From Streptosporangium brasiliense (GTDB lineage: Bacteria > Actinomycetota > Actinomycetes > Streptosporangiales > Streptosporangiaceae), in the NCBI RefSeq assembly GCF_030811595.1, contig NZ_JAUSRB010000002.1:2170001-2234000 (forward strand): a stretch of DNA of 64,000 nucleotides. Reading direction: 5' to 3'. The position numbers and the translations under genes were made by a program. Below are positions 13,611 to 40,042 of the stretch, piece by piece; position 1 is the first letter of the stretch; every line of letters starts with the position of its first letter. A model generated the notes under the pieces. That model was not told the DNA's origin, searched no databases, and saw nothing but the letters and a program-made list of their open reading frames with translations.

Positions 13611-15428
13611 TCAGGCCCGCGGGTCGAGGGCGAACAGCCGGACCAGCTCGTCGAGGCGGTAGTGGAACTGCCCGGCCTGGCCGTTGTCGACCACCGAGGC
13701 GGAGCGGGTCTCGACCAGGGCGCCGAGGTGCCGCCCGGCGGAGTCGTGGTCCAGGCCGCAGACGGCGGCGACGGTGCCGATCGTGAAGTCGACGGGCCCC
13801 AGCCGGGCCAGCCGGGCCAGCGTCTGCTGGACCTCCTCGTTCATCCGCGAGTAGCTGTGCCGCAGGCCGTCCCGTACGGTCAGGTCCGCGATGCTCAGCT
13901 CGTCCAGGCGGCCACGCTCGTCACGGAGCAGGGCGGCGAGGGCGGCGAGCGGCCAGCGCGGGCGGGCGGCGAGCCGGGCGCCGCAGATGCGCACCGCCAG
14001 GGGCAGCCCGCCGCACAGCCGGACCAGCTCGGCCGCGGCGTCAGGCTCGGCGATGACCCGTTCGTGCCCGGCGACGGCCGCCAGGAGCTGGATGGCGTGG
14101 TCGGTGTCGAACCCGTCGAGATCCACGAACTTGGCGCCGCTGACGCCCACCAGCCGGGACCGGCTGGTGACCAGGACCGAGCACGCCGAGGAGGCGGGGA
14201 GCAGCGGCCTCACCTGCGCCTCTCCCACGGCGTCGTCCAGCACGACCAGGATGCGGCGGCCGTTCATGAGGCTGCGGTACAGGGCCATGCGCTCGGCCAG
14301 GTCGTCCGGGACGGCGGCCTTGCCGACCCCGAGCGCCCGCAGGAACCGTCCGAGCACGCGGGCCGGGGACTCGGGAGCGTTCCCGGTGCCGCGCAGGTCG
14401 GCGTAGAGCTGGCCGTCCATGTACATCGGCGCCAGCCGGTGCGCGACGTGCACGGCCAGGGTGGTCTTGCCGGCCCCGGCCGGGCCGGTGACGCCCGCGA
14501 TCAGCGGGGCCGGCCACGCCGGGTCGTTCAGCAGCCCACCCAGGTGGTCGAGGAGCACGGCGATCGCCTTGTCGCGCCCCAGGAAGTCGGCGGTGTCGGC
14601 GGGGACCTGGTGAGGCACGATCGTGCGTCCCCATCCCGCGCCGTGGACCCGTTCGAACCCGCCGAGCGGGTCCTGGTCGAGCACGGTGAGGTAGGCGCGC
14701 TGGGCATCCGCGCTGGGCGCGACGCCCAGCTCGTCGGCGAGCCGGGATCTCAGCCGCTCGTACTCCATGAGCGCCTCGGCGGGGCGGCCGCAGGCGGCGT
14801 ACAGCTCGATCAGGCGCGTGTGCAGCGGCTCGTCGAACGGCCGGGCCCGGGCCAGGGCGCGGGTCCTGGGCAGCAGCAGCTCGGGGGCCTGCACCGAGAT
14901 GGCGAGCGCGGCCAGCCGCTGCAGGCACATGGCGTGGTCGTCGTCCAGGGCCCGTACCGCGGGGTCCTCCCGCACCCCGTCGGGGGCGCCGTCCAGCACG
15001 GAGCCGTACCACTGTTCGAGCGCGCCCATCAGGGAGGACAGGCGCTGGTGGGGATCGAGGCCGGCGGTGTCGGAGTCGGCGGCCAGCGCGGCGCGGAACC
15101 GAGCGGCGTCGATGAACCGGGGCGGCAGCCGCAGCCGGTAGCCGCTGTCGACGTGCTCGATGGAGGCGACCGCGCCGGCCTTGTCGCGCAGCCAGGAGCG
15201 CAGCCGCGACACGGCGGTGCGCAGGGCGATCGTGCTGCCCGAGCCGTGGCCCCACACCTGCTCCAGCAGCCGTCTCTCGGCGACGACCTCGCCGTTGTGC
15301 AGCAGCAGCACGGCCAGCAGCATGCGGGGATGCCGCGCCGGCAGCGCCACCGTGATCCCGTCCCGGCAGACCCGGAACGGTCCGAGAATCTGGAAGTCGT
15401 AGGTGGGAACAGCCCTGTCGACGATCAT
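13611..15428 (-). CDS. SARP/AfsR-type transcriptional regulator (OmpR-like HTH, BTAD, NB-ARC)
   Basis: This 605-residue protein has three regions. An N-terminal OmpR-type winged helix includes ILGPFRV and the SRLRSWLRDKAG helix. A bacterial transcriptional activation domain follows to about residue 255, with FDEPLHTRLIELYAACGRPA and DELGV. An NB-ARC ATPase has Walker A (GPAGAGKTTLA, near residue 316), RILVVLDD as Walker B and GGLPLAVRICG. It lacks the long TPR tail of full AfsR. ATG 15428 has GGAGGA 7 bases upstream and is preferred to a start 20 codons earlier. SARP proteins activate antibiotic clusters. It lies divergently next to the NRPS-PKS operon and is the obvious candidate activator. 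Confidence 0.92.
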   Translation of the reverse strand: MIVDRAVPTYDFQILGPFRVCRDGITVALPARHPRMLLAVLLLHNGEVVAERRLLEQVWGHGSGSTIALRTAVSRLRSWLRDKAGAVASIEHVDSGYRLRLPPRFIDAARFRAALAADSDTAGLDPHQRLSSLMGALEQWYGSVLDGAPDGVREDPAVRALDDDHAMCLQRLAALAISVQAPELLLPRTRALARARPFDEPLHTRLIELYAACGRPAEALMEYERLRSRLADELGVAPSADAQRAYLTVLDQDPLGGFERVHGAGWGRTIVPHQVPADTADFLGRDKAIAVLLDHLGGLLNDPAWPAPLIAGVTGPAGAGKTTLAVHVAHRLAPMYMDGQLYADLRGTGNAPESPARVLGRFLRALGVGKAAVPDDLAERMALYRSLMNGRRILVVLDDAVGEAQVRPLLPASSACSVLVTSRSRLVGVSGAKFVDLDGFDTDHAIQLLAAVAGHERVIAEPDAAAELVRLCGGLPLAVRICGARLAARPRWPLAALAALLRDERGRLDELSIADLTVRDGLRHSYSRMNEEVQQTLARLARLGPVDFTIGTVAAVCGLDHDSAGRHLGALVETRSASVVDNGQAGQFHYRLDELVRLFALDPRA

Positions 15429-15642
15429 GCCTGTTCCTCCGCCTGGGCCCCTCACGCTCCGTTGCGGAAGGACACCCCTAAGCCGCATTTACCTCGTTTG
15501 CGGACATAGCAATCTTACGGCTAATGATCGGCAATGTCCGGCCTTTAACGTTCCATGTGGCAGATGCCGCAAGTCGTACCTAACGGCGTAACACGGGGTA
15601 ACGGCGGATCTAGATGGTGAACAACATGCGGGAATTCCGGTA
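15429..15642. promoter_or_regulatory. Divergent promoter region of regulator and NRPS-PKS operon, with repeated TAACGGCG elements
   Basis: TAACGGCG occurs at 15581-15588 and 15599-15606, with the related TAACACGG between them at 15589-15596. Separately, CGGACAT (15501-15507) and ATGTCCG (15534-15540) form an inverted repeat. SARP activators bind short direct repeats close to the promoter of their target, so the first set is a candidate operator. The spacing of 8 and 10 bp is not the classic 11 bp, so this is tentative. Confidence 0.45.
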
Positions 15643-18600
15643 ATGCAACAGATGGTAGTCGGCCGATTCCTCGACGTCGTTAACAGCAATTCTGACCGCG
15701 TTGCGGTGTATTCGGTTGATGCTTCAATCACTTACGGTGAGCTCGCCGCCGCGGCCGGTGGGATCCAGCGCCTCGTCACCGAGGCCGGCGGCCGTCCGGG
15801 AGGGCGGGTCGGCCTCCTGACCGGTCACGACGCGACGGTCATCGCCGCCATCCTGGGGACCCTGCTCTCCGGCTGCGTCTACGTCCCGCTGGACCCCTCG
15901 TATCCGGTGCCGCGGCTGGCGTACATGGTCGACGACGCCGATGTGAGCGTGCTGGTCACCACCCGCAGGCACGAGGCGCTCGCCCGGACCCTCCTCGGCG
16001 AGCGGTCCTGCGCCGTGGTCCTCGTCGAGGACGCGACCCCGGCGGCGCCGGTGGCCCCCGAGACGGTCGAGCCGGACAGCGTGGCCTACCTGCGCTACAC
16101 CTCCGGATCCACTGGCGTGCCCAAGGGGGTGGCCCAGAGCCACCGGAACCTGGCGCACTGCGTCGGCAACCAGATCGAGAGCCTGTCGATCACCTCCGAG
16201 GACCGGCTCAGCCTGCTCGCCTCGGTCAGCTTCGACGCCTCCATCCCGGACATCTACCCCGCGCTGCTGAGCGGCGCGGCCGTGGTGCCGATCGACGTCC
16301 GCGCGCTCGGGCCGGGCGAGCTGGTGCGCCGCCTGGCCGACCTGGGCGTGACCGTCTACCACTCCACCCCGACGCTCTACCGCTACGTGCTCGACGCGCT
16401 GGGGCCGGCCGGCCGGCTGCCCTCGGTCCGCGCCGTGCTGCTCGGCGGCGAGCGGGTGACCGGCTCCGACGTGGCCGCCGGCCGGGGGCGTTTCGCCGAC
16501 CGCTGCCGGTTCGTCAACGGGTACGGGGCCACCGAGGCCACCTTCGTGGCCCACCACCGGATCTCCTTCGACCCCTCGGAGGCCGGGCCGGAGCCGGGTC
16601 CCCTGGTGCCGATCGGCCGTGCGCTGCCGGGCTACGAGGTGGTCCTGCTGGACGCCGACGGCGGCGAGGGCGAGATCGCCATCCGCAGCCCGTATCTGGC
16701 CCTGGGATATTGGCGGGACCCCGAGCGCACCGCCGCGCGATTCACCACCGACGGCGACGGCAGGCGGGTCTACCGCACCGGAGACCTGGGACGCGAGCTG
16801 CCCGACGGCACGCTGGTCTGCCTGGGCAGACTGGACCGGCAGATCAAGGTGCGCGGGTTCCGCGTCGAGCCGGCCGAGGTGGAGACGCACCTGGCCGGAC
16901 AGCCCGGAGTGGCCAGGGCCGTGGTCACGCTCGCCGGGGACCGGCTCGTCGCCCACGTACAGCCCGCCCCCGGCGCCGTGCTCGATCCGGCCGCGATGCG
17001 GCGGAGCGCCGCCGAGGTCCTCCCGGACTACCTGGTCCCCGCGGCGATCATGGTGCTCGACGCGCTGCCGCTCACCCCGACCGGCAAGGTGGACGCCCGG
17101 GCCCTGCCCGCTCCGGGCCCCGTCCGCGACGGCGAGCGGCCGGCCACCCCCGCCGAGGCCACCGTGCACGACGCCTGGTGCGAGGTGCTCGGCGTGGCGC
17201 GGATCGGCGTGACCGAGCCGTTCTTCGACGCCGGCGGCCACTCCCTGCTCCTGGGACGGCTCCAGCAGCGCCTGTCCGAGACGTTCGGGACTCCGGTGCC
17301 GATGGTGACGCTGTTCGAGCACACCACGGTGCGGGCCCAGGCCCGGGCCCTGTCCGCCCCGGCCGACACGCCGCCCCCGCCGCCGCCGGCCGCGGTCCCC
17401 TCCGCCGCCGACGGCTTCGACGACCTCGACGACCTCGACGGCCACATCGCGGTGGTCGGCCTGGCCTGCCGCTTCCCCGGCGCGCCCGACCCGGCCGCGT
17501 TCTGGTCCGTGCTGTCCGACGGAGTGGACGCCATCTGGGACTACCCGGAATCGGAGCTGCGCGAGCTGGGCGTCGGGGCGGGGCTGCTGGCCGACCCCGC
17601 GCACGTGAGGGCCGGCGGGAAGCTGGACGGGGTGGCGGACTTCGACGCGGAGTTCTTCGGGTTCACCGCCGAGGAGGCCGCCCGCACCGATCCGCAGCAC
17701 CGCCTGTTCCTGGAGACGGCCTGGGAGGCCCTGGAGGACGCGGGATACGACCCGGGCCGCTTCGACGGCCAGATCGGCGTGTACGCCTCCACCTCGGCCA
17801 ACCGCTACTTCCTGTTCCACCTGTTCGGCAACCCCGCCGCCGGCGCCCCGGACGACCCCGACGACTGGGAGGGGCGGCTCCTGCCCCACCAGCGCGCCGA
17901 CCACCTGCCCGGGCAGGTCGCCTACCGGCTCGGGCTGACCGGACCGGCGGTCGCGGTGCAGACCGCCTGCTCCAGCTCCCTGGTCGCGGTGTGCATGGCC
18001 GCCCAGAACCTCGCCGACCACCGCTGCGACCTCGCGCTCGCGGGCGGGGTCAGCGTCACCTGGCCCCGCTACCGGCACACCCCCGGCGGGATGGTCTCCC
18101 CGGACGGGCGGTGCCGCGCCTTCGACGCCGCGGCCAACGGCTCGGGATTCTCCAGCGGGAGCGGCGTGGTGGCGCTCAAGCGGCTCGCCGACGCCATGGC
18201 CGACGGCGACCACGTGTACGCCGTGATCCCCGGCTGGGCGGTCGGCAACGACGGCGCCGCCCGGGCCGGCTTCGCCGTACCGGGTCTGAGCGGCCAGGTG
18301 GCCGCGGTGACCGAGGCCCTCGGCGACGCGGGGATCTCCCCCGACGAGATCGGCATGGTGGAGGCGCACGGCAGCGGCACGCCGCTGGGCGACGCCATCG
18401 AGGTGGAGGCGCTGACCCGTGCCTTCCGGGCGGCCGGCGCGCGGGACACCGGTCACTGCGCGCTGGGCGCGGTCAAGACCAACATCGGCCACACCGACGC
18501 CGCCTCCGGGATCGCGGGGTTCATCAAGGCGGTCCTGTCGGTACGGCACGGGCAGATCCCCGGCAACCTGCACCTCGACTCCCCCAACCCGCAGCTCGAC

Positions 18601-19101
18601 CTGGAGCGCGGGCCGTTCTACCTGCCCGCCAAGACGGTGCACTGGCCCGAGGGCCGCCGGCGGGTGGCCGGGGTCAGCGCGATCGGCATCGGCGGCACCG
18701 GGGCCCACGTCCTGGTGGCCGAGGCGCCGCAGCCGCAGGCCACGGTGCCCGCCTCCGGGGGCCGGTATCTGCTCCCGATCTCCGCCCGCTCTCCCGAGGC
18801 CCTCCGCGCCGCGATCGTACGGCTGCGCGAGCACCTCGCCGCCAACCCGCACCTGTCACCGGCCGACGTGGCGCACACCCTGACGGCCGGACGCCGTTCC
18901 TTCGCCCACCGGGCCGTCGTGGAGTGCGGCAGCCTCGCCGAGGCGATCGCGGCCCTCGACCCCGACCGGCTGATGTCCCAGGCCGGCGCGCCGGAGACGC
19001 TGCCTTCCGGCTCCGCCGTCCCAGGGCGGCGGGTACCGCTGCCGACCTATCCCTTCCAACGACAGCGCTACTGGATCGACCCGCCGGGAGGCACCCGATG
19101 A
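15643..19101 (+). CDS. Hybrid NRPS-PKS protein A-T-KS lacking the acyltransferase domain
   Basis: This 1152-residue protein is the first of the operon. An adenylation domain spans about residues 10-500: YTSGSTGVPKG (A3), SFDASIPD (A4), NGYGATEATF (A5), RQIKVRGFRVEP (A8) and TPTGKVDAR with the A10 Lys. A carrier domain follows (FFDAGGHSLLL, Ser534 for phosphopantetheine). A ketosynthase spans about 602-1025 with Cys776 (QTACSSSL), His909 (EAHGSGT) and His950 (NIGHT). After the KS-AT linker (VAHTLTAGRRSFAHRA) the sequence jumps to the post-AT linker (VPLPTYPFQRQRYWI) and stops, so the AT domain is missing. The pocket code by eye is D-A-P-H-L-G-G-F-V, of unknown substrate. It presumably primes with an amino acid and extends with a malonyl unit supplied in trans. 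ATG 15652 is an alternative start. Confidence 0.93.
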   Translation: MQQMVVGRFLDVVNSNSDRVAVYSVDASITYGELAAAAGGIQRLVTEAGGRPGGRVGLLTGHDATVIAAILGTLLSGCVYVPLDPSYPVPRLAYMVDDADVSVLVTTRRHEALARTLLGERSCAVVLVEDATPAAPVAPETVEPDSVAYLRYTSGSTGVPKGVAQSHRNLAHCVGNQIESLSITSEDRLSLLASVSFDASIPDIYPALLSGAAVVPIDVRALGPGELVRRLADLGVTVYHSTPTLYRYVLDALGPAGRLPSVRAVLLGGERVTGSDVAAGRGRFADRCRFVNGYGATEATFVAHHRISFDPSEAGPEPGPLVPIGRALPGYEVVLLDADGGEGEIAIRSPYLALGYWRDPERTAARFTTDGDGRRVYRTGDLGRELPDGTLVCLGRLDRQIKVRGFRVEPAEVETHLAGQPGVARAVVTLAGDRLVAHVQPAPGAVLDPAAMRRSAAEVLPDYLVPAAIMVLDALPLTPTGKVDARALPAPGPVRDGERPATPAEATVHDAWCEVLGVARIGVTEPFFDAGGHSLLLGRLQQRLSETFGTPVPMVTLFEHTTVRAQARALSAPADTPPPPPPAAVPSAADGFDDLDDLDGHIAVVGLACRFPGAPDPAAFWSVLSDGVDAIWDYPESELRELGVGAGLLADPAHVRAGGKLDGVADFDAEFFGFTAEEAARTDPQHRLFLETAWEALEDAGYDPGRFDGQIGVYASTSANRYFLFHLFGNPAAGAPDDPDDWEGRLLPHQRADHLPGQVAYRLGLTGPAVAVQTACSSSLVAVCMAAQNLADHRCDLALAGGVSVTWPRYRHTPGGMVSPDGRCRAFDAAANGSGFSSGSGVVALKRLADAMADGDHVYAVIPGWAVGNDGAARAGFAVPGLSGQVAAVTEALGDAGISPDEIGMVEAHGSGTPLGDAIEVEALTRAFRAAGARDTGHCALGAVKTNIGHTDAASGIAGFIKAVLSVRHGQIPGNLHLDSPNPQLDLERGPFYLPAKTVHWPEGRRRVAGVSAIGIGGTGAHVLVAEAPQPQATVPASGGRYLLPISARSPEALRAAIVRLREHLAANPHLSPADVAHTLTAGRRSFAHRAVVECGSLAEAIAALDPDRLMSQAGAPETLPSGSAVPGRRVPLPTYPFQRQRYWIDPPGGTR

Positions 19102-19865
19102 CCACCCTGACGGCCCGCTGGTTCCGGTGCGCGCGGCCCCTGCCGCACGCGCCGCTCCGGCTGTTCTGCCTGCCGTACGCCGGCGCGGGCGCGGGCGTGT
19201 TCCACCCCTGGCCGGCCGCCCTCGCCCCCGACGTGGAGGTGGTGGGCGTCCAGCTACCGGGCAGGGAGAACCGGATCGTCGAGCCGCCCGAGATCGACCT
19301 GGCCGAGCTGGCCGACGCGGTCGCCGACGCCGTGACCGCCGACAGCCGCCCCTACGCGCTGTACGGGCACTCGCTGGGCGCGCGGCTGGCGTTCGAGGTG
19401 ACCCGGCGGCTGGACCGTGCCGACGCGCCGCTGCCGGTCCGGCTGTATGTGGGCGCCGCCCGCGCACCGCATCTGCACGCCTCCGCCGACACCTTCGACG
19501 GGCTCTCCCGCGTCTCCGACGACGAGCTGGTGACCCGGGTGGTGGCCGGGGGCGGCGTGCCCGAGGCGGTCGCCGCCGAGCCGGAGCTGCTGGAGCTGCT
19601 GCTGCCGACGCTGCGGGCGGACTTCGCCTGGCTGGACGACTACGTCTACCAGCCCGGACCGGCGCTGCCGGTGCCGATCACGGCCTTCGCCGGCACGCTC
19701 GACCGGGCCGTCTCGATGGAGCAGGTGGCCGCCTGGGAGCAGCACACCGCCGCGGGCTTCGCCCTGCACCGCCTCGACGGCGGTCACTTCTTCCTCCAGG
19801 ACAGGCTGGCGGACCTGACCACCCTGCTGTCGGCGGACCTCAGGGCCGCGGGCGGTGGGCTGTGA
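19098..19865 (+). CDS. Type II thioesterase
   Basis: This 255-residue alpha/beta hydrolase belongs to the type II TE family that removes mis-primed acyl groups from carrier domains. It shows FCLPYAGAGAGVFHPW, YGHSLGARLAFEV with the nucleophile Ser92, FAGTLDRAVS with the likely catalytic Asp region, and GGHFFLQD with His230. It is coupled to the A-T-KS gene by an ATGA overlap and to the LanB-like gene by a GTGA overlap. Its last codons lie in a 15-bp segment repeated exactly 2280 bp downstream. Confidence 0.94.
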   Translation: MTTLTARWFRCARPLPHAPLRLFCLPYAGAGAGVFHPWPAALAPDVEVVGVQLPGRENRIVEPPEIDLAELADAVADAVTADSRPYALYGHSLGARLAFEVTRRLDRADAPLPVRLYVGAARAPHLHASADTFDGLSRVSDDELVTRVVAGGGVPEAVAAEPELLELLLPTLRADFAWLDDYVYQPGPALPVPITAFAGTLDRAVSMEQVAAWEQHTAAGFALHRLDGGHFFLQDRLADLTTLLSADLRAAGGGL

Positions 19866-20677
19866 CGAAGGTGAGACTGGGAGACAGCGGCTGGTCGGTG
19901 TGGCCGGACGCGTTGCTGCGCACGACGGGGTTCCCCGCCGACGGGCTGGACGCCTTCGCGGCGCCCGCGGCCGCCGCCGCGGCCGACGATCTGCTCGCCG
20001 GTAACGGTGATGCGGAGATGTTCGACAAGACGCTGGCCGAGGCGGTCGCGGCGGGTGCTCGCAAGATCTGTGAGATCGCCGCTGATCCGCTGTTCCGTGA
20101 GGCGGTGACCTGGCAGAACCCGGGTGTGCTGGTCGCCTTGGACGGCTTGGTGGCCGGTGGTCCGGAGGCGAGCCGTAATGTGCGGCGGCGGGACCGGGAG
20201 CGGGCGGTGATCCGTTACTGGCAGCGTTACTGCGCCAAGAACGAGACCATCGGGTTCTTCGGCCCGGTCTGCTGGATCGACGTCGAGCGGTCCGAGCAGG
20301 CGCTGAGCGTCCGGACCGGCCCGGGCCTGCTCCGCCACCGACGGGTGTTCTTCGAGGGCTGGGCGATGACCGCCTACGCCGATCATCTGGCCGGGGATCC
20401 GCTGGTCCGCCGCTGGTGGCCGCCCGCGCTGCTGCCCCATCTCACCGTGCAGGAGCGGTCGCTGCTGCGACCGATGCAGCCGCCGCTGGCGCTGTCGCCG
20501 GTGGAGGCGGCGGTGCTGGCCCGCTGTGACGGACGGACCCCGGCGGTGGAGGTCGTCGCCGGGCTGGACCGGCCGGAGGACGGCTACCTGCTGCTGGAGC
20601 GGCTGGTCGAGCGGGAGTTGATCACCTGGGACGCGGCGCTGCCGATCGGCCGCGACGCCGAGGACGTGCCTGCGTGA
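19862..20677 (+). CDS. LanB-like dehydratase domain, N-terminal part (frameshifted gene)
   Basis: This 271-residue piece matches the N-terminal region of lantibiotic-dehydratase (LanB) proteins, which use aminoacyl-tRNA as co-substrate. It has RYCAKNETIGFFGPV, the counterpart of the R-x-x-x-R-x-T-P-F-G-x-F-A-G segment, and a winged region ending LLLERLVERELITWD. The GTG start overlaps the thioesterase stop (GTGA). The frame ends at 20677, but the protein plainly continues in another frame: skipping one base near 20666 gives D-C-L-R-E-R-I-A-S-I-G-D, the expected continuation. Codons here end in T more often than in neighbouring genes. The gene may be inactive, rescued by +1 frameshifting, or affected by a sequencing error. 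Confidence 0.8.
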   Translation: MTKVRLGDSGWSVWPDALLRTTGFPADGLDAFAAPAAAAAADDLLAGNGDAEMFDKTLAEAVAAGARKICEIAADPLFREAVTWQNPGVLVALDGLVAGGPEASRNVRRRDRERAVIRYWQRYCAKNETIGFFGPVCWIDVERSEQALSVRTGPGLLRHRRVFFEGWAMTAYADHLAGDPLVRRWWPPALLPHLTVQERSLLRPMQPPLALSPVEAAVLARCDGRTPAVEVVAGLDRPEDGYLLLERLVERELITWDAALPIGRDAEDVPA

Positions 20678-20680
20678 GCG
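20660..20680 (+). other. Apparent one-base frameshift site in the LanB-like gene
   Basis: Reading GAC-GTG-CCT-GCG-TGA terminates the first frame at 20675-20677. Omitting one base at about 20666 gives GAC-TGC-CTG-CGT-GAG-CGG, which runs on through the rest of the domain. Protein similarity is continuous across this point. No slippery heptamer with a strong downstream structure was recognised. Confidence 0.75.
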
Positions 20681-20720
20681 GATCGCCTCGATCGGGGACG
20701 CCGAGCTGCGCGAGCGGGCG

Positions 20721-22145
20721 GTGGCGGGGCTGGCGCGGTTGTGCGCGGCCCGTGACGCGGTGGCCGCCGCCGCGGGTGACCCGGTGGGGTTGAAGGAGGC
20801 GCTGGCTGGGCTGGACGCGGAGTTCACCGCGGTCACCGGTGCCGCGCCGCGGCGGCGGGACGGGCAGATGTACGCCGGTCGCACGCTGTGTTACGAGGAC
20901 ACCACCCGGGACGTCGACGTCACCGTCGGCTCCTCCCTCCTCGACGACCTCGCACCACCTCTCGCGCTCATCCTGGCCACCGCCCACTGGCTCACCCACG
21001 CGATCAGCTCGGCCTGCCGGGACGTCCTGCGGGAGCTCCACGACGAGCTGCGGGACGGCTCCGACGCCCCGGTGCGCCTGGCCGACCTGTGGTATCTCGC
21101 CCAGGGGCTGCTGTTCACCGGCGGCGACAACCCGTTCCGCACGGTGGCCGACGACTTCGCCCGGCGGTGGGCCGAGCTGATCGGCGTGCCGGCCGGCCTC
21201 GGGAGCGGCGCGCGCGTCCAGCTCTCGGCCGCCGAGCTGGCCGAGCCGCTGGCGCGGCTGTTCCCCGCCGGGCGGCCCGGCTGGGCGGCGGCCCGGCTGC
21301 ACAGCCCCGACCTGCAGATCTGCGCCCCCGACGTCGACGCCGTCAACCGCGGCGACTACCAGGCGGTCCTCGGTGAGCTGCACGCGGCCTGGCCGACGTT
21401 CGACTGCGACCTCTTCACCGTCTGGCACCCCGAGGTCGACCGGCTCCGGGACGAGCTGACCGCCGACCTCGGGCCGGACCGGGTCCGGCTGCTCCACCCC
21501 GACACCTGGCCCCGGCACACCGGGCGGGTCGCGCCGTCGCTGACCGGCACCACCGACCGGCTGCTGGGGTTCGCCGCGGCACCGGGCGCCGACCCGGAGC
21601 GGCTGCTGCCGGCCACCTCGGTCATCGTCTCCGACGACGACGGCACCCTGATCGCCACCGCCCCCGACGGACACCGGTGGCCGCTCATCGAGATGTTCGC
21701 CGGCATGCTCAACGGCCTCGCCGTCGACGCCTTCAAGCTCACCTCGCCCGCGCCGCACGTGCCCCGGATCACCATCGACCGGCTGGTCATCGCCCGCGAG
21801 ACCTGGCGCACCACCGTCACCGAGACCGGACTGGCCGACATCACCAACGAACGCGAACGCTACCTGGCCACCCGCGCCTGGCGACAGCGCCTCAACCTGC
21901 CCGACCAGATCTTCGTCAAGATCGGCACCGAAGTGAAACCCTGCTACTTCGACCTCACCAGCCCCCACTACGTCGGCGTGCTGTGCACCATGCTCCGCAC
22001 CGCCGGCCCCGAGGTCTCCGTCGTGATCAGCGAGGCCCTGCCCACCCCCGACCAGGCCTGGGTCCCCGACCACCAGGGCAACCGCTACTTCAGCGAACTG
22101 CGCCTGCAGATCACCGACCCCGTCACCGCGGGCGGTGGGCGATGA
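20721..22145 (+). CDS. LanB-like dehydratase domain, C-terminal part (frameshifted gene)
   Basis: This is the continuation of the LanB-like protein. GTG 20721 gives 474 residues, but homologous sequence starts earlier (R-E-R-I-A-S-I-G-D from about 20673), so independent translation would lose part of a helix. Typical features are AARDAVAAAAGDP, GRTLCYEDTTRDVDVT, a hydrophobic helix with LILATAHWL, and WRQRLNLPDQIFVKIGTE near the end. With the first part the total is about 750 residues, the size of the glutamylation (tRNA-dependent) domain alone. The C-terminal elimination domain of full LanB enzymes is absent. This fits split LanB proteins or peptide aminoacyl-tRNA ligases. The stop overlaps the next NRPS start (ATGA). 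Confidence 0.8.
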   Translation: MAGLARLCAARDAVAAAAGDPVGLKEALAGLDAEFTAVTGAAPRRRDGQMYAGRTLCYEDTTRDVDVTVGSSLLDDLAPPLALILATAHWLTHAISSACRDVLRELHDELRDGSDAPVRLADLWYLAQGLLFTGGDNPFRTVADDFARRWAELIGVPAGLGSGARVQLSAAELAEPLARLFPAGRPGWAAARLHSPDLQICAPDVDAVNRGDYQAVLGELHAAWPTFDCDLFTVWHPEVDRLRDELTADLGPDRVRLLHPDTWPRHTGRVAPSLTGTTDRLLGFAAAPGADPERLLPATSVIVSDDDGTLIATAPDGHRWPLIEMFAGMLNGLAVDAFKLTSPAPHVPRITIDRLVIARETWRTTVTETGLADITNERERYLATRAWRQRLNLPDQIFVKIGTEVKPCYFDLTSPHYVGVLCTMLRTAGPEVSVVISEALPTPDQAWVPDHQGNRYFSELRLQITDPVTAGGGR

Positions 22146-25100
22146 GCGACCGTCTGTCCCAGCCGGAGGCGGACCGCGTGGGGGCGGACCACCCGGAGAC
22201 GGAGCACCTGGAAACGGACCACCTGGAGGCGGACCGCATGGAGGCCGATCAGACGCTCTCCTCGGAGCGGACCGTCTCTTCGGGGCGGACCGTCGCCGAC
22301 CTCGTCGTGGCGCGGGCCCGCGCCGTGCCGGACGCGCTCGCGGTCGCCCAGTGGGACGAGGAGATCACCTACCGGGAGCTGGCCGGCCGCGCCGCCGCGC
22401 TCGCGGCCCGGCTCGGCGCGCTCGGCGTCGGGCCGGAGACCAGGGTCGGGATCTGCATGGAGCGGCGGCCCGCGCTGCTGGTCGCGATCTACGGCGTGCT
22501 GCTGGCCGGCGGCTGCTACGTGCCGCTGGACCCGGCCGGCCCCCGGCTGCGGCTGCGGGACATGGCCGTCGACGCCGGTCTGGAGGTCGTGGTGGCCGAC
22601 CGGGCGGGCGCGGAGGCGGCCGGCGAGGCGGGCCTGCGGTGCGTCGCCGTACCCGGCCCGGCCGAGTCCGTCGACCTGGCCGCGGTGCCGGACTGCCCGG
22701 CCGCGCCGGACAACCTCGCCTACGTGCTGTACACCTCCGGCTCCACCGGCCGGCCCAAGGGCGTGCTCGTCACCCACCACAACCTGGCCGACTTCGTCCT
22801 CGGAACCATCGAGACCGTCGGGGCCGGACCGGACACCCGCGCGCTGGGCTTCTCCTCCCTCAGCTTCGACGCCTCCGCCCTCGACCTGTTCGTCCCGCTG
22901 ATCGTGGGCGGGTCGGTGCACATCGCCGGCGACGCCGACCGCTCCGACCCGACCAGGCTGCAGCGGTTCGTCGCCGAGCACCGGATCACCTGGGGGTTCG
23001 TCACCCCCGCCGTGCTGGCCCTGCTCGACCCGGCCACGCTGCCCGACTGGCAGGTGGTGATGGCCGGCGGCGAGGCGGTGCCGGCCGAGCTGGTCAACCG
23101 GTGGCCGGGCCGCCGGTTCGTCAACGTCTACGGGCCCACCGAGGCGACGGTGTCGGCCGCCACCGCCGAGCTGGCCGCCCCGCAGGCCACGCCGGTGCCG
23201 ATCGGCCACCCGACGCCCGGCCACCGCTGCTACGTCGTCGACGACCACTTCCGCCTGGTCGAGCCCGGCGCCGAGGGCGAGCTGCTGATCGGCGGCCCCG
23301 GCGTGACCCGCGGCTACCTGAACAGGCCCGCGCTGACCGCCGCGGCGTTCGTGCCCGACCCGTTCTCCGGCGAGGCGGGCGCGCGGCTCTACCGGACCGG
23401 GGACATGGCGCGCTACGCCGACGACGGACAGCTCGTCTACCTGGGCCGCCGCGACGGACAGGTCAAGATCCGCGGCCAGCGGATCGAGCTGGGCGAGATC
23501 GTCACCGTCCTGCAGGAGCACCCGGCGGTGGCGCAGGCGGCGGTGGAGGCGGTGCCGCGGCCCGGCGGCGGCCTGGAGCTGGTCGCCTTCCTCACGCCGG
23601 AGGACGCCCCGGCCGACGCCGGATACGCCGCCTCGCGGCTGACCGTGGCGATGCTGCCGGGACGCGTGCTGCGCCTGCCCGAGCTGCCGCTCAACTCCTC
23701 CGGCAAAGTGGACCGGTCCCGGCTGCGGGAGCTGGCCGCCGAGGAACGCCCGGCCGACGACTCGCCGGAAGGGGGGACGGCCACCGAACGGGCGCTCGCG
23801 GCGGTGTGGCGGCGCCTCGGCGTCGGCGCCGACTTCTTCGCCGGCGGAGGCGACTCGATCACCGCGATGCGGCTGGTCGCCGCCGCCCGCAGCGAGCTGG
23901 GCCTGGACGTGACGGTGGACGACGTGTTCGCCGGCCGCACCCTGCCGGAGATCGCCGCCCGGTTCGACGGGGCCGCCCGGCTGGCGGGGCCGGAGCTCAC
24001 CCTCGGCCATCCGCCGACCCTGGCCCCGCCGCAGCGCCGTCTGTGGTTCCTGGACCAGCTCGCGCCCGAGGCCGCGCCGTACAACATCGCCCTGGCCGAG
24101 AGGCTGCGCGGCCCCCTGGAGGTGACGGCGCTGCGGACGGCGCTGCGGACCGTCGCCGAGCGGCACGACGTGCTGCGCTGGCGGATCCGGCAGCGGGCCG
24201 GCGTGCCGTACGCCGTCTGCGAGCCGCCCTCCGACGTGGACCTGACCGTGGTCGACCTGAGCGGGTACGGCCAGGCGCAGCGGGAGGCGCAGCTGCGCAC
24301 CCGGCTGGCGGCCGGCGCGTCCGCGCCGTTCGACCTGGCGGGCGGCTCCCCCTGGCGGGCGTGGCTGTACGTGCTGGCCCCCGACGAGCACGTGCTGGCG
24401 CTGACCCTGCACCACGCGGTGTTCGACGGCTGGTCCCGGGACACGCTCTACACCGACCTGTCGGCCGCCTACACGGCCGCCGTCACCGGCCGGGCGGTGG
24501 ACCTGCCGCCGCTGCGGGCCTCCTACGCCGACTACGCGGTCTGGCGGGCCGAGCGGGACAGCCGCACCGGCGAGGCGGACCTGGCCTGGTGGGCCGGGCA
24601 CCTGAGCGGGGCGCCCACCGTGCTGGACCTGCCCCGCGACCGGCCCCGCCCGGCCGTGCAGACCTACCGGGGCGCCGAGGCCCGCGTGGCCCTGCCGCCC
24701 GGGACCGACGCCGCGGTCCGCGCGCTGGCCGCCGACCTCGGGGCGACCCCGGCGGGGGTGCTGCTGGCGGGGCTCGGCCGGCTGCTCCACCGGCTCACCG
24801 GCGCCGCCGACCACGTGGTCGGCGCGGTCGTCGCCGACCGGCGGGTGGCCGCCTTCGACGACCTGGTCGGGTTCTTCATCGACATGGTCCCGCTGCGGCT
24901 GCGGTCGGACGACCGCACCGACTTCGCCACCCACGTACGGCGCTGCACCCGCGAGCTGCTGGACGTCGCCGCGCACCCGGCCGCGCCGCTGGAGCGCGTG
25001 GTCGAGGAGCTCGACATCCGCCGGGACACCTCCCGCGCCCCGCTGGTGCAGGTCATGTTCAACGTGCTGAACCTGACCGAGCCCCGGCTGGAGCTGCCCG

Positions 25101-25774
25101 GCGTGCGCGGCGAGACGATCGAGGTCGACAAGCCGGGCTCGCCGTTCGACCTGACCGTGTACGTGGCGGAGCGGGACGGCGGATTCTCCGTCGAGGTCGT
25201 CTACAACCCCGACCTGTTCGACGCCGCCAGGATCGACGCGATGCTCGCCGACTACGTGAACGTGGTCGGCGCGCTGGCCGCCGACCCGGCCACCCCGATG
25301 GGCGCGGTCGCGCTGCCCGGCCGGGTCTCACCGGAGGCGGCGCCCGGCGCCATGCGGGTCGCCGACCCGGTGGCCGTGGCGCCGTCGGCGGGCCAGGGGA
25401 CCGGGTCGACCGCCACCGAGGAGCTGATCGCCACGATCTGGCGTGAGGTTCTGGAGCGGGACGGCGTCGGCCCCGACGACAACTTCTTCGACATCGGCGG
25501 TCACTCGCTGGCGCTCGCCGCCGTGCACGCCCGCCTGTGCGTCCAGCTCGACCGTGAACTGCGGATGGTGGACCTGTTCCGCTACCCCAACATCCGATCC
25601 CTCGCCGCCTATCTCGACGCCGAAAGCCCGGCGGGCGGCTCCGCCGGGCACCCCCAGGCCGGCAATCCCGAACTCGCCCGCGCGGCCTCCCGGGCCGAGG
25701 CGCGGCGCAACCGCACGCGACGCCCACGACGCGTCCACAGCACCACCGGACAGGAGAACGACCATGACCAGTGA
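22142..25774 (+). CDS. Nonribosomal peptide synthetase A-T-C-T
   Basis: This 1210-residue protein starts with an odd acidic pentapeptide repeat (residues 11-36). An adenylation domain follows (A3 YTSGSTGRPKG near residue 197, SFDASALD, NVYGPTEATV, DGQVKIRGQRIELGE, NSSGKVDR). The first carrier has Ser572 (FFAGGGDSITAM). The condensation domain has the intact H-H-x-x-x-D-G motif (HHAVFDGW, His757-His758). The second carrier has Ser1122 (FFDIGGHSLAL), and a basic tail ends the protein. The pocket code by eye is D-A-L-F-M-G-V-V-S, probably a hydrophobic residue but not a code I can assign. No adenylation domain serves the second carrier in cis, so loading must come in trans. ATG 22142 overlaps the upstream stop, and its end overlaps the PKS start by 11 bp. 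Confidence 0.94.
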   Translation: MSDRLSQPEADRVGADHPETEHLETDHLEADRMEADQTLSSERTVSSGRTVADLVVARARAVPDALAVAQWDEEITYRELAGRAAALAARLGALGVGPETRVGICMERRPALLVAIYGVLLAGGCYVPLDPAGPRLRLRDMAVDAGLEVVVADRAGAEAAGEAGLRCVAVPGPAESVDLAAVPDCPAAPDNLAYVLYTSGSTGRPKGVLVTHHNLADFVLGTIETVGAGPDTRALGFSSLSFDASALDLFVPLIVGGSVHIAGDADRSDPTRLQRFVAEHRITWGFVTPAVLALLDPATLPDWQVVMAGGEAVPAELVNRWPGRRFVNVYGPTEATVSAATAELAAPQATPVPIGHPTPGHRCYVVDDHFRLVEPGAEGELLIGGPGVTRGYLNRPALTAAAFVPDPFSGEAGARLYRTGDMARYADDGQLVYLGRRDGQVKIRGQRIELGEIVTVLQEHPAVAQAAVEAVPRPGGGLELVAFLTPEDAPADAGYAASRLTVAMLPGRVLRLPELPLNSSGKVDRSRLRELAAEERPADDSPEGGTATERALAAVWRRLGVGADFFAGGGDSITAMRLVAAARSELGLDVTVDDVFAGRTLPEIAARFDGAARLAGPELTLGHPPTLAPPQRRLWFLDQLAPEAAPYNIALAERLRGPLEVTALRTALRTVAERHDVLRWRIRQRAGVPYAVCEPPSDVDLTVVDLSGYGQAQREAQLRTRLAAGASAPFDLAGGSPWRAWLYVLAPDEHVLALTLHHAVFDGWSRDTLYTDLSAAYTAAVTGRAVDLPPLRASYADYAVWRAERDSRTGEADLAWWAGHLSGAPTVLDLPRDRPRPAVQTYRGAEARVALPPGTDAAVRALAADLGATPAGVLLAGLGRLLHRLTGAADHVVGAVVADRRVAAFDDLVGFFIDMVPLRLRSDDRTDFATHVRRCTRELLDVAAHPAAPLERVVEELDIRRDTSRAPLVQVMFNVLNLTEPRLELPGVRGETIEVDKPGSPFDLTVYVAERDGGFSVEVVYNPDLFDAARIDAMLADYVNVVGALAADPATPMGAVALPGRVSPEAAPGAMRVADPVAVAPSAGQGTGSTATEELIATIWREVLERDGVGPDDNFFDIGGHSLALAAVHARLCVQLDRELRMVDLFRYPNIRSLAAYLDAESPAGGSAGHPQAGNPELARAASRAEARRNRTRRPRRVHSTTGQENDHDQ
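22172..22252 (+). repeat. 15-bp coding minisatellite, pentapeptide repeat
   Basis: Five copies and a partial of a 15-bp unit encode pentapeptides of the form (D/E)-(H/R)-x-(E/G)-(A/T), such as DHLEA and DRMEA. The array lies in the N-terminal extension of the A-T-C-T protein, before the adenylation domain. It would form a highly acidic, possibly helical leader. Confidence 0.85.
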
Positions 25775-28700
25775 CGTCACCGACGAGGGCGTCGAACCGA
25801 TCGCCATCGTGGGGATGGCCGCCCGCGTGCCGGGCGCCTCCGACATCGACGAGTTCTGGCGGAACCTGGTCGACGGCGTGGAATCGATCACCACCTTCAC
25901 CCGCGAGGAGCAGGTGGCCAGGGGCGTGTCCGAGGAGGACGTCGACGACCCGAGCTGGGTGTCGAAGGCGCCCTACGTCGAGGGGTACGACCAGTTCGAC
26001 GCCGGCCTGTTCGGCCTCACCGCGCGCGAGGCGGAGATCCTCAACCCGCAGCACCGGCTGTTCCTGGAGACCTGCTACTCGGCGTTGAACGACGCCGGGA
26101 CCGACCCGGCGCGCTACGACGGCGCCATCGGCGTCTACGCGGGCACCGGCGGCAACCAGTACCTGTGGGAGAACCTGGCCCGCAACAAGCGGGTGTGGGA
26201 CACCCGGCACGGCATCGGGCTCGCCACCGCCAACTCGCCGAACTACGTGGCCACCACCGTGTCCTACCGGCTGGACCTGCGCGGGCCCAGCTTCACCATC
26301 CACACCGCCTGCTCCACGTCGCTGGTCGCGCTCCACCTGGCCTGCGAGGCGCTGCGCGGCGGCGAGTGCGACATGGCCCTGGCGGGCGGCGTCAACGTGG
26401 AGCACCCGCCCGCGACCGGATACATCGGCGTGGAGGGGTTCACCTCCCCCGACGGCCACTGCCGGCCGTTCGACGCCGACGCCAACGGCACCGTCTGGGG
26501 CAGCGGCGTCGGCGTCGCGGTGCTCAAGCGGCTTGAGGACGCCATCGCCGACGGCGACCACATCCACGCCGTGGTGCGGGGCAACGCGATCAACAACGAC
26601 GGCGCGGGCAAGGTCGGTTTCTCCGCCCCCAGCGTCGACGGGCAGGCCGCCGCGGTCGCGCAGGCGGTCGGGCTCGCCGGGATCGACCCGCGCACGATCG
26701 GCTACGTCGAGGCGCACGGCACCGGCACCGCGCTGGGCGACCCGATCGAGGTGGCCGCCCTGACCTCGGTGTACACGCAGGCCACGGAGGACCGCGGCTG
26801 GTGCGGCATCGGCTCGGTGAAGTCCAACATCGGCCACCTCAGCCAGGCCGCGGGCATCATCAGCGTGATCAAGGCGGTGCTGGCGCTGAAGCACGGGCTG
26901 ATCCCGCCGACGATCAACTACGAGCGGCCCAACCCGGCGATCGACTTCGCCGACACCCCGTTCTACGTGGCGTCCACGCTCAGCAAGTGGGAGACGGACG
27001 GCGGCCCCCGGCGCGCCGGGGTGAGCTCCTTCGGCATCGGCGGCACCAACGCGCACGTCGTGCTGGAGGAGGCGCCGCCCGTCGAGGCGGACCCGCTCCC
27101 CCCGCGGCCCGCGCACCTGCTGCAGGTCTCCGCCAAGACCGCCACCGCGCTGGACGCGGCGGTGGAGCGGCTGGCCGGGCACCTGGAGTCGCACGGGGAC
27201 CTCGCGCTGGCCGACGTGGCCCACACGCTGCGGGTGGGCCGGCAGGAGTACTCCCACCGGGCCGCCGTGGTGGCCACCGACCGCGCCGACGCGGTCACCG
27301 CGCTGCGCGAGCGCAAGCGCCGCCGCAAGGGCGAGGCCGGCCCCACCCCGCCGGCCGTGGCCTTCCTGTTCTCCGGGCAGGGCGCGCAGTACGCGGGCAT
27401 GGGCGCGGAGCTGTACCGGGCCGAACCGGTGTTCGCCGCCGCCGTCGACGAGTGCGCCGACCTGCTCACCGAGCACCTCGGTCTCGACCTGCGCGACCTG
27501 ATGTTCGGCACCGCGCCCGACGCCGAGGAGACGCTCCGGCAGACGCGCTACACCCAGCCGGCGCTGTTCACCGTGGAGTACGCGCTGGCCCGGCTCTGGC
27601 GGAGCTGGGGAGTACGGCCGGCCGCGATGATCGGCCACTCCATCGGCGAATACGTCGCCGCGACCGTCGCCGGGGTGTTCACCCTGGCCGACGCGGTCCG
27701 CCTGGTCGCCGCCCGCGGCGCGCTGATGCAGTCGATGCCGGCGGGCGCGATGCTCGCCGTCCAGCGGGACGAGTCGGAGCTGGCCGGCCGGCTGCCGGAC
27801 GGGGTGTCGGTGGCGACCGTCAACGGCCCCGGCACCTGCGTGGTGGCCGGCCCCACGGAGGCGATCGAGGCGTTCGCCGAGACGCTGAAGGCCGAGAAGG
27901 TGGGCTGCAAGGCCCTGCGCACCTCGCACGCCTTCCACTCGGCGATGATGGAGCCGATCCTCGCGGAGTTCACCGCGCTGGTCGCCTCGGTGCCGCGGCG
28001 GGCCCCGAGCCTGCCGTTCTGGTCCAACGTCACCGGCGAGCCCATCACCGCCGAGCAGGCGACGGACCCGGCCTACTGGGCCGGCCACCTGCGGCAGCCG
28101 GTCAGGTTCGGCGCCTGCGTCGCCGGGCTGTTCGCCGCGCACGGTGACACGCCGCCGATGCTGGTGGAGTGCGGGCCGGGCCGGCAGCTGGCCGGGCTGG
28201 CCAGGATGCAGCTGCCCAAGGGCGCGCCCGCGCCGCTGCCCAGCCTGCCCGGGCCCGGGGAGCGGACCGGCGACGCCGCCACCGTCTACGACGCGGCGGG
28301 CACGCTGTGGGCCGCCGGGGTGCCGCTGACCGCGGGCTCCGGGACGGCCCGCCGGGTGCCGCTGCCGGTCTACCCGTTCGAGCGCCGGCGCTACTGGATC
28401 GACGCCGACCCGGTCGACCAGACCGCCTCCGCCGCCCCGGCCCGGCGCCGCGGCCCGCTGCCGCTGGCCGACTGGTTCGCGGTGCCCACCTGGCGCCAGG
28501 CCGCCCCCGACCCCCGCCGGACCGAGCTCGGCGACTGCCTGGTGCTGGCCGACGGGCCCCGCGGGCAGGAGCTCGTCGCCGAGCTGCGCGCCCGGGGCGC
28601 CGCCGTGCGGGTGGCCGGTCCCGGCGACCACGAGACGCTGCTGGCCGGCGGTGTCCCGGCCAGGATCGTGCACGCGCTGGCGCTGGACGGCCTGCCGGCC

Positions 28701-31151
28701 GGCGGCGAGATCGCCGCCACCTGGCAGGCGCAGGAGCGCGGCTTCTTCGACCTGCTGAGCCTGGTCCAGGCCCTGGCCGGCGCGGGGGTGGCCGACGGGG
28801 TCCACCTTGACGTGGTGTCGTCGGGCACCTCGGACGCGCAGGGCGATCTGCCCCGCCCCGAGCACGCCACCCTCGCCGGCATCGCCAGGGTGGTCCCGCT
28901 GGAGCTGCCCGGCCTGACCGTCCGCCACATCGACGCCGACCCGGAGGCGGGCGCCGCGCAGACGGCCGACCTCGTCGCCGAGCTGCTGCGGCCCGCCGAC
29001 GAGGCGGAGGTGGCGCTGCGCGCCGGCCGCCGCTGGGTCACCGACTACGCTCAGGTGCCCCTGGGCGAGGAGGTCTCCGAGGCCACGGTCGTCCGCGACG
29101 GGGGCCGGTACCTGATCACCGGCGGCATCGGCGGCATCGGCATCACCCTCGCCGAGGACTTCGCGCGGCGGGCCCGCGCGCGGCTGGCGCTGCTCAGCCG
29201 CAACGGCCTGCCGCCGCGTGAGGAGTGGGACACCCACCTGGCGGTGCACGGCGGCGCGGACCGCACGGGCCGCGCCATCCTCGCGATCCGTCGGATGGAG
29301 CAGGCGGGCGCCCAGGTGCTGGTGCTGGCCGCCGACGTCACCGACCCGGCCGGACTGAGCGCGGTGCGCGAGCGGATCGACGCCGAGTTCGGCGGGCTGG
29401 ACGGCATCGTGCACGCCGCCGGCCTGCCCGGTGGCGGCATGGCCGAGGTGAAGGACCGCGCCACGGCCACCGCCGTACTGGCCCCCAAGATCGCCGGAAC
29501 CCTCGCCCTGGCGCAGGTCTTCGGCGACCTCCCGCTCGACTGGGTGGCCCTGTGCTCCTCGGTGACCTCCGTGGTCGGCGGCTTCGGGCAGGTCGACTAC
29601 TGCGCGGCCAACAACTTCCTCGACGCCTACGCCCGCAGCGCCCACGGCTGGCGCGCGCCGGTCGTCTCGCAGAACTGGGGCGGCTGGACCGAGGTCGGCA
29701 TGGCCGTCGAGGTGTCGGCGCCCGAGGGGTTCCGCGCCGCCCGCGGCGGGGTCGCCGGGGCGGTGGACCACCCGGTCCTGTCCACCCGGGTGACCGGCCA
29801 GGACGGGGAGGCCGAGGCCCACGGGCTGGTCTCCGCCGCCACGCACTGGCTGCTCGACGAGCACCGCATCGGCCAGGTGCCGGTGGTCCCCGGCACCGGC
29901 CACCTGGAGTCGGTGCGGGCCGCGGTGGCCGCGTGCCTGCCCGCCCCGGACGCCGACCACGTCGTGGAGCTGCGGGACGTGGCGTTCCTGGAGCCGTTCT
30001 CCGTCCCCGACGGGGGCACCGCCCAGTACCGGGTGGAGCTGACCCCCTCGGCGGACGGCGTCGACTTCCAGGTGACGAGCCGTACGGCGGGCCGCTCCGC
30101 CACGCACGTGCGCGGCTCGGCCGGGTGGGTCCGCCCCGAGCCGGCCGCGGAGGCGGACGCCGGGTCGATCGTGGCCCGCTGCCGGCCGCGCCAGGCCGCG
30201 GGTGAGACCGCGGGCGAGGCCGGACGGACCAGCATGCTCACCTTCGGCCCCCGCTGGGAAGCGCTGGGCGAGCACCACGTGGGCCCGGACGAGGAGCTCG
30301 CCAGGATCGTCGCGCCCGAGGCCGCCCTGGCCGACCTGGAGCGCTGGGTGCTGCACCCGGCGCTGCTGGATGTGGCCACCGCCTTCGGCGAGGGACGCGG
30401 GGAGGGCAGCTACCTGCCGCTCTCCTACGGCCGGGTGCTGGTGCGCAGGCCGCTGCCCGCGCGGTTCTGGAGCCACCTGCGCTACGCCGACGGCGGTGAC
30501 GACGTGGTCTCGGCGGACCTGACGCTGTTCGACGAGGACGGCCGGGTGCTGGTGGAGATCGGCGACTTCGTGCTGCGCCGGGTGGACCGCGACGCCGTCA
30601 CCGGCGACCTGGCCGCCCCCGGCGGCCCGGCCGGATCGGCGCCCGCCGCGCCGGCCGGCGACGGGATCGCTCCCGTGGACGGCGCCGAGGCGTTCCGCCG
30701 GGTGCTGGCCGCGCGGCTCGGCCCCCAGGTCGTGATCAACCCGCTGCCGGTGGCCGAGCTCGCCGAACGGGCCAGGGCCCGGACCACCGACAGCATCGCC
30801 GGCGACGCCGGGGCCGAGGAGAGCTCCGGGCAGGCGGCGGAGGGCGACGACCACGCCCTGCCCCGCACCGAGCTGGAGGCGACCATCGCACGGGTGTGGA
30901 GCGACGGCCTCGGCGTGCCGCGGGTCGGCATCGATGACGACTTCTTCGCGCTGGGCGGCAACTCCCTGATCGCGGTGCAGCTCATCGCCTCCCTGCGCAA
31001 GGCCGTCGGCGTGAAGCTGCCGATGCGCAGCCTGTTCGAGTCACCGACCGTGGCCGAGCTCGCGGTCGTCGTCGAACGGCTCCGGGCCGCCGACGGCGAG
31101 GCCGAGCAGGCCCGTCCGGCCACCACCATCCCCAAGCTGGACCGTAAATGA
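25764..31151 (+). CDS. Type I polyketide synthase KS-AT-KR-DH-ACP
   Basis: This 1795-residue module starts with a ketosynthase (residues 12-430) with Cys183 (HTACSTSL), EAHGTGT and [10 protein letters not shown]. The acyltransferase has GHSIGEY with Ser626. HAFHS at about 722-726 is the usual malonyl-CoA signature. After the post-AT linker come a structural subdomain and a ketoreductase ([11 protein letters not shown] near 1115, catalytic CSSVTS and DYCAANN). A dehydratase-like double hot-dog follows it (about 1350-1620): [15 protein letters not shown] holds the His, and LHPALLD the Asp. The acyl carrier has Ser1734 (FFALGGNSL). KR before DH is the reverse of the usual order. The module should add one malonyl unit and reduce, possibly dehydrate, it. 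The start overlaps the upstream stop by 11 bp. Confidence 0.94.
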
Positions 31152-31165
31152 ACGAGGCAGGAACC

Positions 31166-31351
31166 ATGACCGACGACCACTACCTGGTCGTGCGTAACGA
31201 CGAGGAGCAGTACTCGATCTGGCCGGCGGGCCGCACACTCCCCGCCGGGTGGCACGAGACCGGCTTCAGTGGAGCCAAGCAGGACTGCTTGGACCACATC
31301 GAGACGGTGTGGACCGACATGCGCCCGCTCAGCCTGCGCCAGGGCGGGTGA
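31166..31351 (+). CDS. mbtH: MbtH-like protein
   Basis: This 61-residue protein has the family signature: [18 protein letters not shown], then [17 protein letters not shown]. MbtH-like proteins bind adenylation domains and are needed for solubility or activity of many of them. ATG 31166, with a GAGG/AGGA-rich leader, gives the standard length. An alternative ATG at 31148 would overlap the PKS stop (ATGA) and add six residues. The stop lies 4 bp before the next NRPS gene, so it is clearly part of the operon. Confidence 0.95.
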
Positions 31352-31355
31352 CACG

Positions 31356-40038
<8,683 letters not shown>

Positions 40039-40042
<4 letters not shown>

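Follow-up and report, generated by a model that had tools for sequence, protein, structure and literature searches.

The window analysed here, a 64,000-nucleotide stretch of the Streptosporangium brasiliense genome (contig NZ_JAUSRB010000002.1, positions 2,170,001 to 2,234,000), contains an operon for nonribosomal peptide synthetase and polyketide synthase (NRPS–PKS) proteins and, within it, a gene resembling the lantibiotic dehydratases (LanB) that is broken between two reading frames. Comparison with intact homologues places this gene in a family that combines the LanB glutamylation-type fold with the ATP-site residues of peptide aminoacyl-tRNA ligases (PEARLs). These enzymes probably join a tRNA-borne amino acid to a carboxylate freed by a thioesterase (TE), with the window copy being a probably inactive recombinant. 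What this reading draws on was established by computation: family and fold, ATP-site residues, the order and fusions of genes, the tandem copies and the chimeric make-up. The broken gene has the following features:

19862..20677, + strand: PEARL-like (LanB glutamylation-type) enzyme, first frame (PF04738, E 6.5e-13)
20640..20720, + strand: stretch with a one-position reading-frame change (homology and third-position GC)
20721..22145, + strand: PEARL-like enzyme, second frame, with PEARL ATP-site residues in HSPD, GELH and SELR (PF04738, E 2.6e-12; residues)
21364..21384, + strand: putative chimera crossover, between the last copy-1-like site at 21364 and the next copy-2-like site at 21384 (diagnostic sites, supported by segment trees and sliding identity)

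A preliminary description of this DNA had taken the two frames together as a LanB glutamylation domain inside an NRPS–PKS operon, and had proposed a profile search, a structure prediction and a search for intact copies in related clusters. Both frames (271 and 474 residues) exceed the PF04738 (Lant_dehydr_N) cut-off of 28 bits, at 48.2 and 46.2 bits respectively; the Pfam domains of the neighbouring genes bear out the NRPS–PKS setting. The first frame matches positions 1-127 of the 649-position profile and the second has its best stretch at positions 572-648, so that the start and end of the profile are both matched, as fits a single gene split between two frames, which are offset by one position. 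Homologous reading in the second frame extends upstream of the GTG at 20721, and third-position GC switches from the first frame to the second at about 20,640-20,720, thus indicating a single gene. A programmed frameshift was rejected because relatives read the gene in a single frame. A search of all 10.49 Mb of the genome gave no further PF04738 match at E≤0.001. NCBIfam gave no match for the first frame, a sub-threshold unrelated match for the second and no match for the 21 intact homologues described below.

A scan of GTDB genomes revealed 18 loci of the family, from which 21 intact copies were aligned, leaving out copies that were cut or frame-odd. At E≤0.01, all 21 hit a single Pfam family, PF04738; the elimination domain PF14028 is found in 0/21. 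An AlphaFold2 model of an intact homologue (767 residues, predicted local distance difference test score 87.5) has 11 matches among solved structures at E≤0.001, all of which are TbtB, MibB, MadB, GodF or NisB; the closest solved fold is TbtB (6ec8; E 8.5e-23, TM 0.63, 18% identity). PEARLs are distinguished from dehydratases by ATP-site residues, which are Asp542, Glu801 and Arg803 in TglB (PMC11117183, PMC11962472), the Asp542 and Arg803 positions being occupied in split LanBs by Tyr and Leu (PMC11117183). In the family, Asp490, Glu512-x-His514 and Glu752-x-Arg754 are invariant in 21/21 aligned copies, Glu512 and His514 corresponding to Glu564 of TglB and the His beside it, with spacings (490-512 and 752-754) equal to those of TglB (542-564 and 801-803), the equivalence being drawn from spacing and from alignment within the family set. 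The same Asp, Glu-x-His and Glu-x-Arg are present in 33/33 copies when divergent relatives and the window copy are included. For comparison with LanBs of the same bacterial family, 24 of 30 loci were tried and gave 23 segments, of which the three that were out of frame (L086, L091 and L092) were dropped. The remaining 20 alignable segments begin after the Asp position and report on Glu, His and Arg: the Arg and the Glu-x-His occur in 0/20, and the Glu in 17/20. The family therefore has a LanB glutamylation-type fold with PEARL ATP-site residues, which, together with the lack of PF14028, speaks for amide formation with aminoacyl-tRNA rather than for dehydration. Among the functions put forward in the preliminary description, the addition of an amino acid from tRNA is the most likely on the strength of these residues and the fold.

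The other function that had been suggested, dehydration of a Ser unit with a partner elsewhere, would require a genuine (split) lantibiotic dehydratase, able to glutamylate Ser and paired with an enzyme for the elimination step. The Pfam family name and the fold would suit such an enzyme, but it is very improbable here: PF14028 has no match in the window's genome at E≤1e-3, which upholds the earlier statement that an elimination domain is lacking, and none at E≤1e-15 in three genomes that carry the cluster (G001, G004 and G006), while the PEARL residues that the alignable LanBs lack are present. The PF14028 model does find matches in 135/250 genomes of the bacterial family at E≤1e-15, and two further cluster-carrying genomes, G007 and G011, have one and two matches, respectively. 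No clear precursor peptide had been noted in the window; this stands for the operon at 15643-41013, which has no space for a precursor gene, and for that interval only, as the search for small open reading frames did not extend to the flanks or to the genome beyond them. Lantibiotic dehydration was rejected on the lack of PF14028 and on the active-site residues.

The proposed search for an intact copy was fruitful. Close relatives have an unbroken LanB-like gene wherever it is present whole, in the same gene order as the window, and stand-alone intact homologues of 758-807 residues occur in Streptosporangium and Microtetraspora clusters. Three genomes of the window's genus (G001, G006 and G011) have the same gene set, which recurs across Streptosporangium, Microtetraspora and Micromonospora as far as the contigs extend; G007 and G004, likewise of this genus, yield hits equal to those of S. 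minutum (L003) and S. canum (L004), in line with the genus being Streptosporangium; 55/297 genomes of the bacterial family have a match at E≤1e-30. Most close relatives carry two or three tandem PEARL copies of two types: three in S. minutum (L003), at least two in S. canum (L004, where a run of N lies inside the array), and two in G001, G006, G011, Microtetraspora fusca and six Micromonospora loci (L009-L013 and L015). A single copy is present in M. glauca (L008/G130), in the Actinomadura and Phytohabitans loci, and in the more distant clusters G109, G039, G248 and G263. TE and PEARL share a single unbroken frame at ten loci, namely the six Micromonospora loci, G011, L044 (G109), L046 (G039) and L048 (G248).

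In Actinomadura oligospora (L017:5208-6041 and neighbours), the PEARL-like gene is surrounded by a gene with the HK97/phage-capsid fold (possibly encapsulin-like), an asparagine-synthase-like amidotransferase, a KAS III, a sulfotransferase-like gene, an acyl-CoA ligase and other non-modular genes. The acyl-CoA ligase, the KAS III and the non-modular surroundings suggest that the acceptors there may be small carboxylic acids. At G076:C8:1202433-1207259 (L102), two tandem divergent PEARL-like genes are each listed with one internal TAA and are each still matched as an open stretch; no NRPS condensation (C) motif is seen nearby.

Alignment with the tandem copies of relatives indicates that the window copy is a chimera of two paralogues that close relatives keep intact. 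Three two-copy relatives define 86 sites that are diagnostic for copy 1 versus copy 2; the window copy is copy-1-like at 38 of the first 39 and copy-2-like at all 47 that follow. Sliding identity (against 13 copies from seven relatives) and segment trees (58 sequences plus the window, after removal of sequences of ≤700 residues and of at most four entries that were duplicates or truncated) concur, as residues 338-440 group with copy 1 and residues 485-640 with copy 2. The frame change lies upstream of this switch. Compared over four segments, copies 1 and 2 of the same genome are 100, 83, 80 and 100% identical in G001, 93, 81, 78 and 99% in G006, and 96, 84, 80 and 99% in G011; the ends are less alike in M. 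fusca (90, 77, 71 and 85%). This looks like gene conversion of the copy ends with the middle kept distinct, a pattern that would be expected if the middle sets specificity. In both segment trees, which carry no printed support values, the copy-1 type groups with the second Micromonospora copy, and the two types thus appear to be older than the genera.

The chimera and the frame break together make it probable that the window copy is either non-functional or mis-assembled. It differs at 3/133 family-invariant sites (most intact copies differ at 0-4, with one outlier at 23), so no long decay is visible. It is quite possible that, for this copy alone, both peculiarities arose as artefacts when an intact tandem pair was sequenced or assembled: the copies within a genome are almost the same over the 5′ kilobase and at the 3′ end (both 100% in G001), which invites collapse, other assemblies break at the same place (the run of N in L004 and contig starts in L005 and L007), and the near-intact set of invariant sites points the same way. 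Yet the assembly comprises only five contigs for 10.49 Mb, the remaining genes of the cluster (some 25 kb of coding sequence) have full-length frames, and near-identical ends would equally favour real recombination. In either case, the intact copies in relatives, rather than the window copy, are the ones worth studying.

The genes around the PEARL-like gene, with adenylation (A), thiolation (T) and C domains for the NRPS parts, are:

13611..15488, − strand: SARP/AfsR-type regulator (BTAD and NB-ARC; Pfam), kept beside the cluster in G001, G006 and G011
15643..19101, + strand: NRPS–PKS protein A-T-KS (Pfam), 83-88% identical in Streptosporangium relatives
19098..19865, + strand: type II-like thioesterase (PF00975, 1.3e-38), with a 4-base overlap with the PEARL-like gene
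22142..25774, + strand: NRPS A-T-C-T (Pfam), with the C motif LHHAVFDG, which is not the ureido motif
25764..31151, + strand: PKS KS-AT-KR-DH-T (Pfam)
31148..31351, + strand: MbtH-like protein (PF03621, 8.8e-21)
31356..34520, + strand: NRPS C-A-T (Pfam)
34517..40042, + strand: NRPS C-A-T-TE fused to an MFS transporter, TE motif GHCGVG (Pfam and sequence)
40039..41013, + strand: TauD-family oxygenase (PF02668, 4.4e-46)

Consecutive genes of the operon overlap or stand 4 bases apart. From A-domain codes read by hand, we take the C-A-T protein to be Asn-like and the C-A-T-TE protein to be Ser-like; the A-T-C-T protein is presumably specific for a hydrophobic residue, its code likewise being read by hand. 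A product guess from these codes led to no named compound. The oxygenase is probably SyrP-like. The second T domain of A-T-C-T has no A domain of its own, an arrangement conserved across relatives, and the DH of the PKS follows the KR in the domain order. The fusion of C-A-T-TE with the transporter is conserved as a single protein of 1831-1845 residues in three relatives; its TE has Cys where Ser is usual, which is reminiscent of TEs that form β-lactones or β-lactams. A reduced relative of the cluster (G263:C1:7344000-7383999; L096 and L097) has TE, PEARL, A-T-C-T, KS-AT-KR-DH-T and an A-T-like protein, after which the Asn and Ser modules are missing.

In the most likely mechanism, the neighbouring, and in some relatives fused, TE would unload a carrier-bound intermediate to give the free carboxylate. 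The PEARL would then phosphorylate this acid using ATP, as in PEARL precedent, the amino group of an aminoacyl-tRNA would attack the phosphorylated carboxylate, and hydrolysis of the tRNA ester would leave the substrate longer by one residue. Where close relatives have tandem paralogues, each could add one residue in turn. More tentatively, TE and PEARLs could form an off-loading relay, in which the TE would release the chain, to be lengthened one residue at a time by one to three PEARLs, belonging to two distinct and ancient types, into a tRNA-made tail; such a tail would evolve by gain, loss and recombination of copies, with the window showing one recombination. Several points weigh against the proposed joining of an amino acid to a TE-freed acid or against its elaboration. 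TE and PEARL are separate genes at most loci, the single-copy clusters (L008/G130, G109, G039, G248 and G263) mean that two additions are not obligatory, and a sequence profile of the family retrieves no LanB among solved structures at E≤10. The assignment of the ATP site draws on spacing and on alignment within the family set rather than with TglB, BhaB7 or SnaE themselves, and its contrast with LanBs covers the Glu, His and Arg. The TE could also be an ordinary proofreading enzyme or a shuttle that transfers aminoacyl groups between T domains, as reported for the thioesterase LgnA (PMC8748450).

The free acid might instead arise and be used in mid-pathway. Barbamide offers a precedent for hydrolysis by a type II thioesterase followed by reloading (PMC8748450). 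The TE would here free an intermediate at an early stage, such as one carried by A-T-KS, and the PEARL would extend it; the product would be re-activated by an A domain or serve as a separate acceptor, or else the PEARL might act on a carrier-bound or side-chain carboxylate. The gene order A-T-KS, TE, PEARL, A-T-C-T fits this, and the reduced cluster G263 retains TE, PEARL and A-T-C-T among its genes. We regard it as unlikely: the window A domains retain the Asp expected for α-amino acids, and the code of none suggests that it loads a peptide acid, both being hand readings.

A third source of a free carboxylate is provided by a published precedent. SnaE, from the threopeptin pathway of Stackebrandtia nassauensis, is a PEARL-like enzyme that adds Thr in an NRPS–PKS pathway, where its acceptor is the carboxylate left by a ureido-forming C domain with the motif EHHxxHDG; this work, by Yu and van der Donk in 2024, also noticed fusions and counted about two thousand NRPS/PKS clusters with genes annotated as lantibiotic dehydratases (PMC11212132). 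PEARL-like enzymes in NRPS–PKS clusters are thus an already known kind, and the preliminary description had missed both this precedent and the chimeric nature of the window gene. In our literature search for NRPS-linked PEARLs, the sna work alone was found to be characterised, with SnaE as the only such enzyme with an experimentally assigned function; a search for threopeptin returned only PMC11212132 and its preprint. The sna cluster has in common with the window the kind of enzyme, an MbtH, a TE and a KS-AT module (PMC11212132). A SnaE-like role, extending a carboxylate freed by ureido-type chain reversal, is nonetheless improbable for this family. The C motifs of the window are LHHAVFDG, VHHAVFDA and THHIVGDG, with EHHxxHDG in 0/3, and a scan of 27 regions, the window included, found EHHxxHDG in 0/11 regions of this family (10/11 show a C motif) versus 3/16 regions of divergent PEARLs (G003, G291 and G029); as the regions are mostly about 20 kb, a distant ureido C domain could escape detection. 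The positive regions, one of them in the same genus, indicate that the search can detect the motif. In that region (G003:C1:163000-202999; L098 and L099), a divergent PEARL adjoins an NRPS with EHHMVHDG in what is likely a SnaE-type cluster, a point in favour of such a role within the genus. The other 13/16 divergent regions show no EHHxxHDG within the 12-20 kb read, so chain reversal looks like one use of such PEARLs among several. Five regions (G076, G097, G052, G266 and this family's G255) have no C motif of any sort. Ureido chain reversal was rejected for the window because the motif was not seen there or in the family regions.

What is new here is an enzyme of SnaE's kind without a visible ureido-forming C domain, placed beside or fused to a TE and often duplicated, and chain reversal is therefore unlikely to be the general reason for such enzymes. 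If the relay proposed above operates, assembly-line products may bear residues that are invisible to A-domain prediction.

Among known systems, the leucyl/phenylalanyl transferase that works with a C-minus NRPS in livipeptin biosynthesis is likewise a tRNA-using partner of an NRPS, but belongs to an unrelated family (PMC10548850). TbtB, the split LanB glutamylation domain with the closest solved fold, glutamylates Ser, and split LanBs differ in the Tyr and Leu at two PEARL-specific positions (PMC11117183). The PEARLs TglB, BhaB7 and AmmB resemble the family in having no elimination domain and in the ATP-site Asp, Glu and Arg with Glu-x-His (PMC11117183, PMC11962472); they act on a ribosomal carrier peptide, for which the window's operon has no space. 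The likeness to SnaE, compared by description rather than by alignment, extends to the annotation as lantibiotic dehydratase and to an NRPS–PKS cluster with MbtH and a thioesterase but without elimination domain or precursor peptide (PMC11212132). SnaE follows a ureido-forming C domain with EHHxxHDG, of which none was found in the window's family; here, by contrast, the genes for TE and PEARL overlap, with fusions of the two in some relatives, and most close relatives carry PEARLs in tandem.

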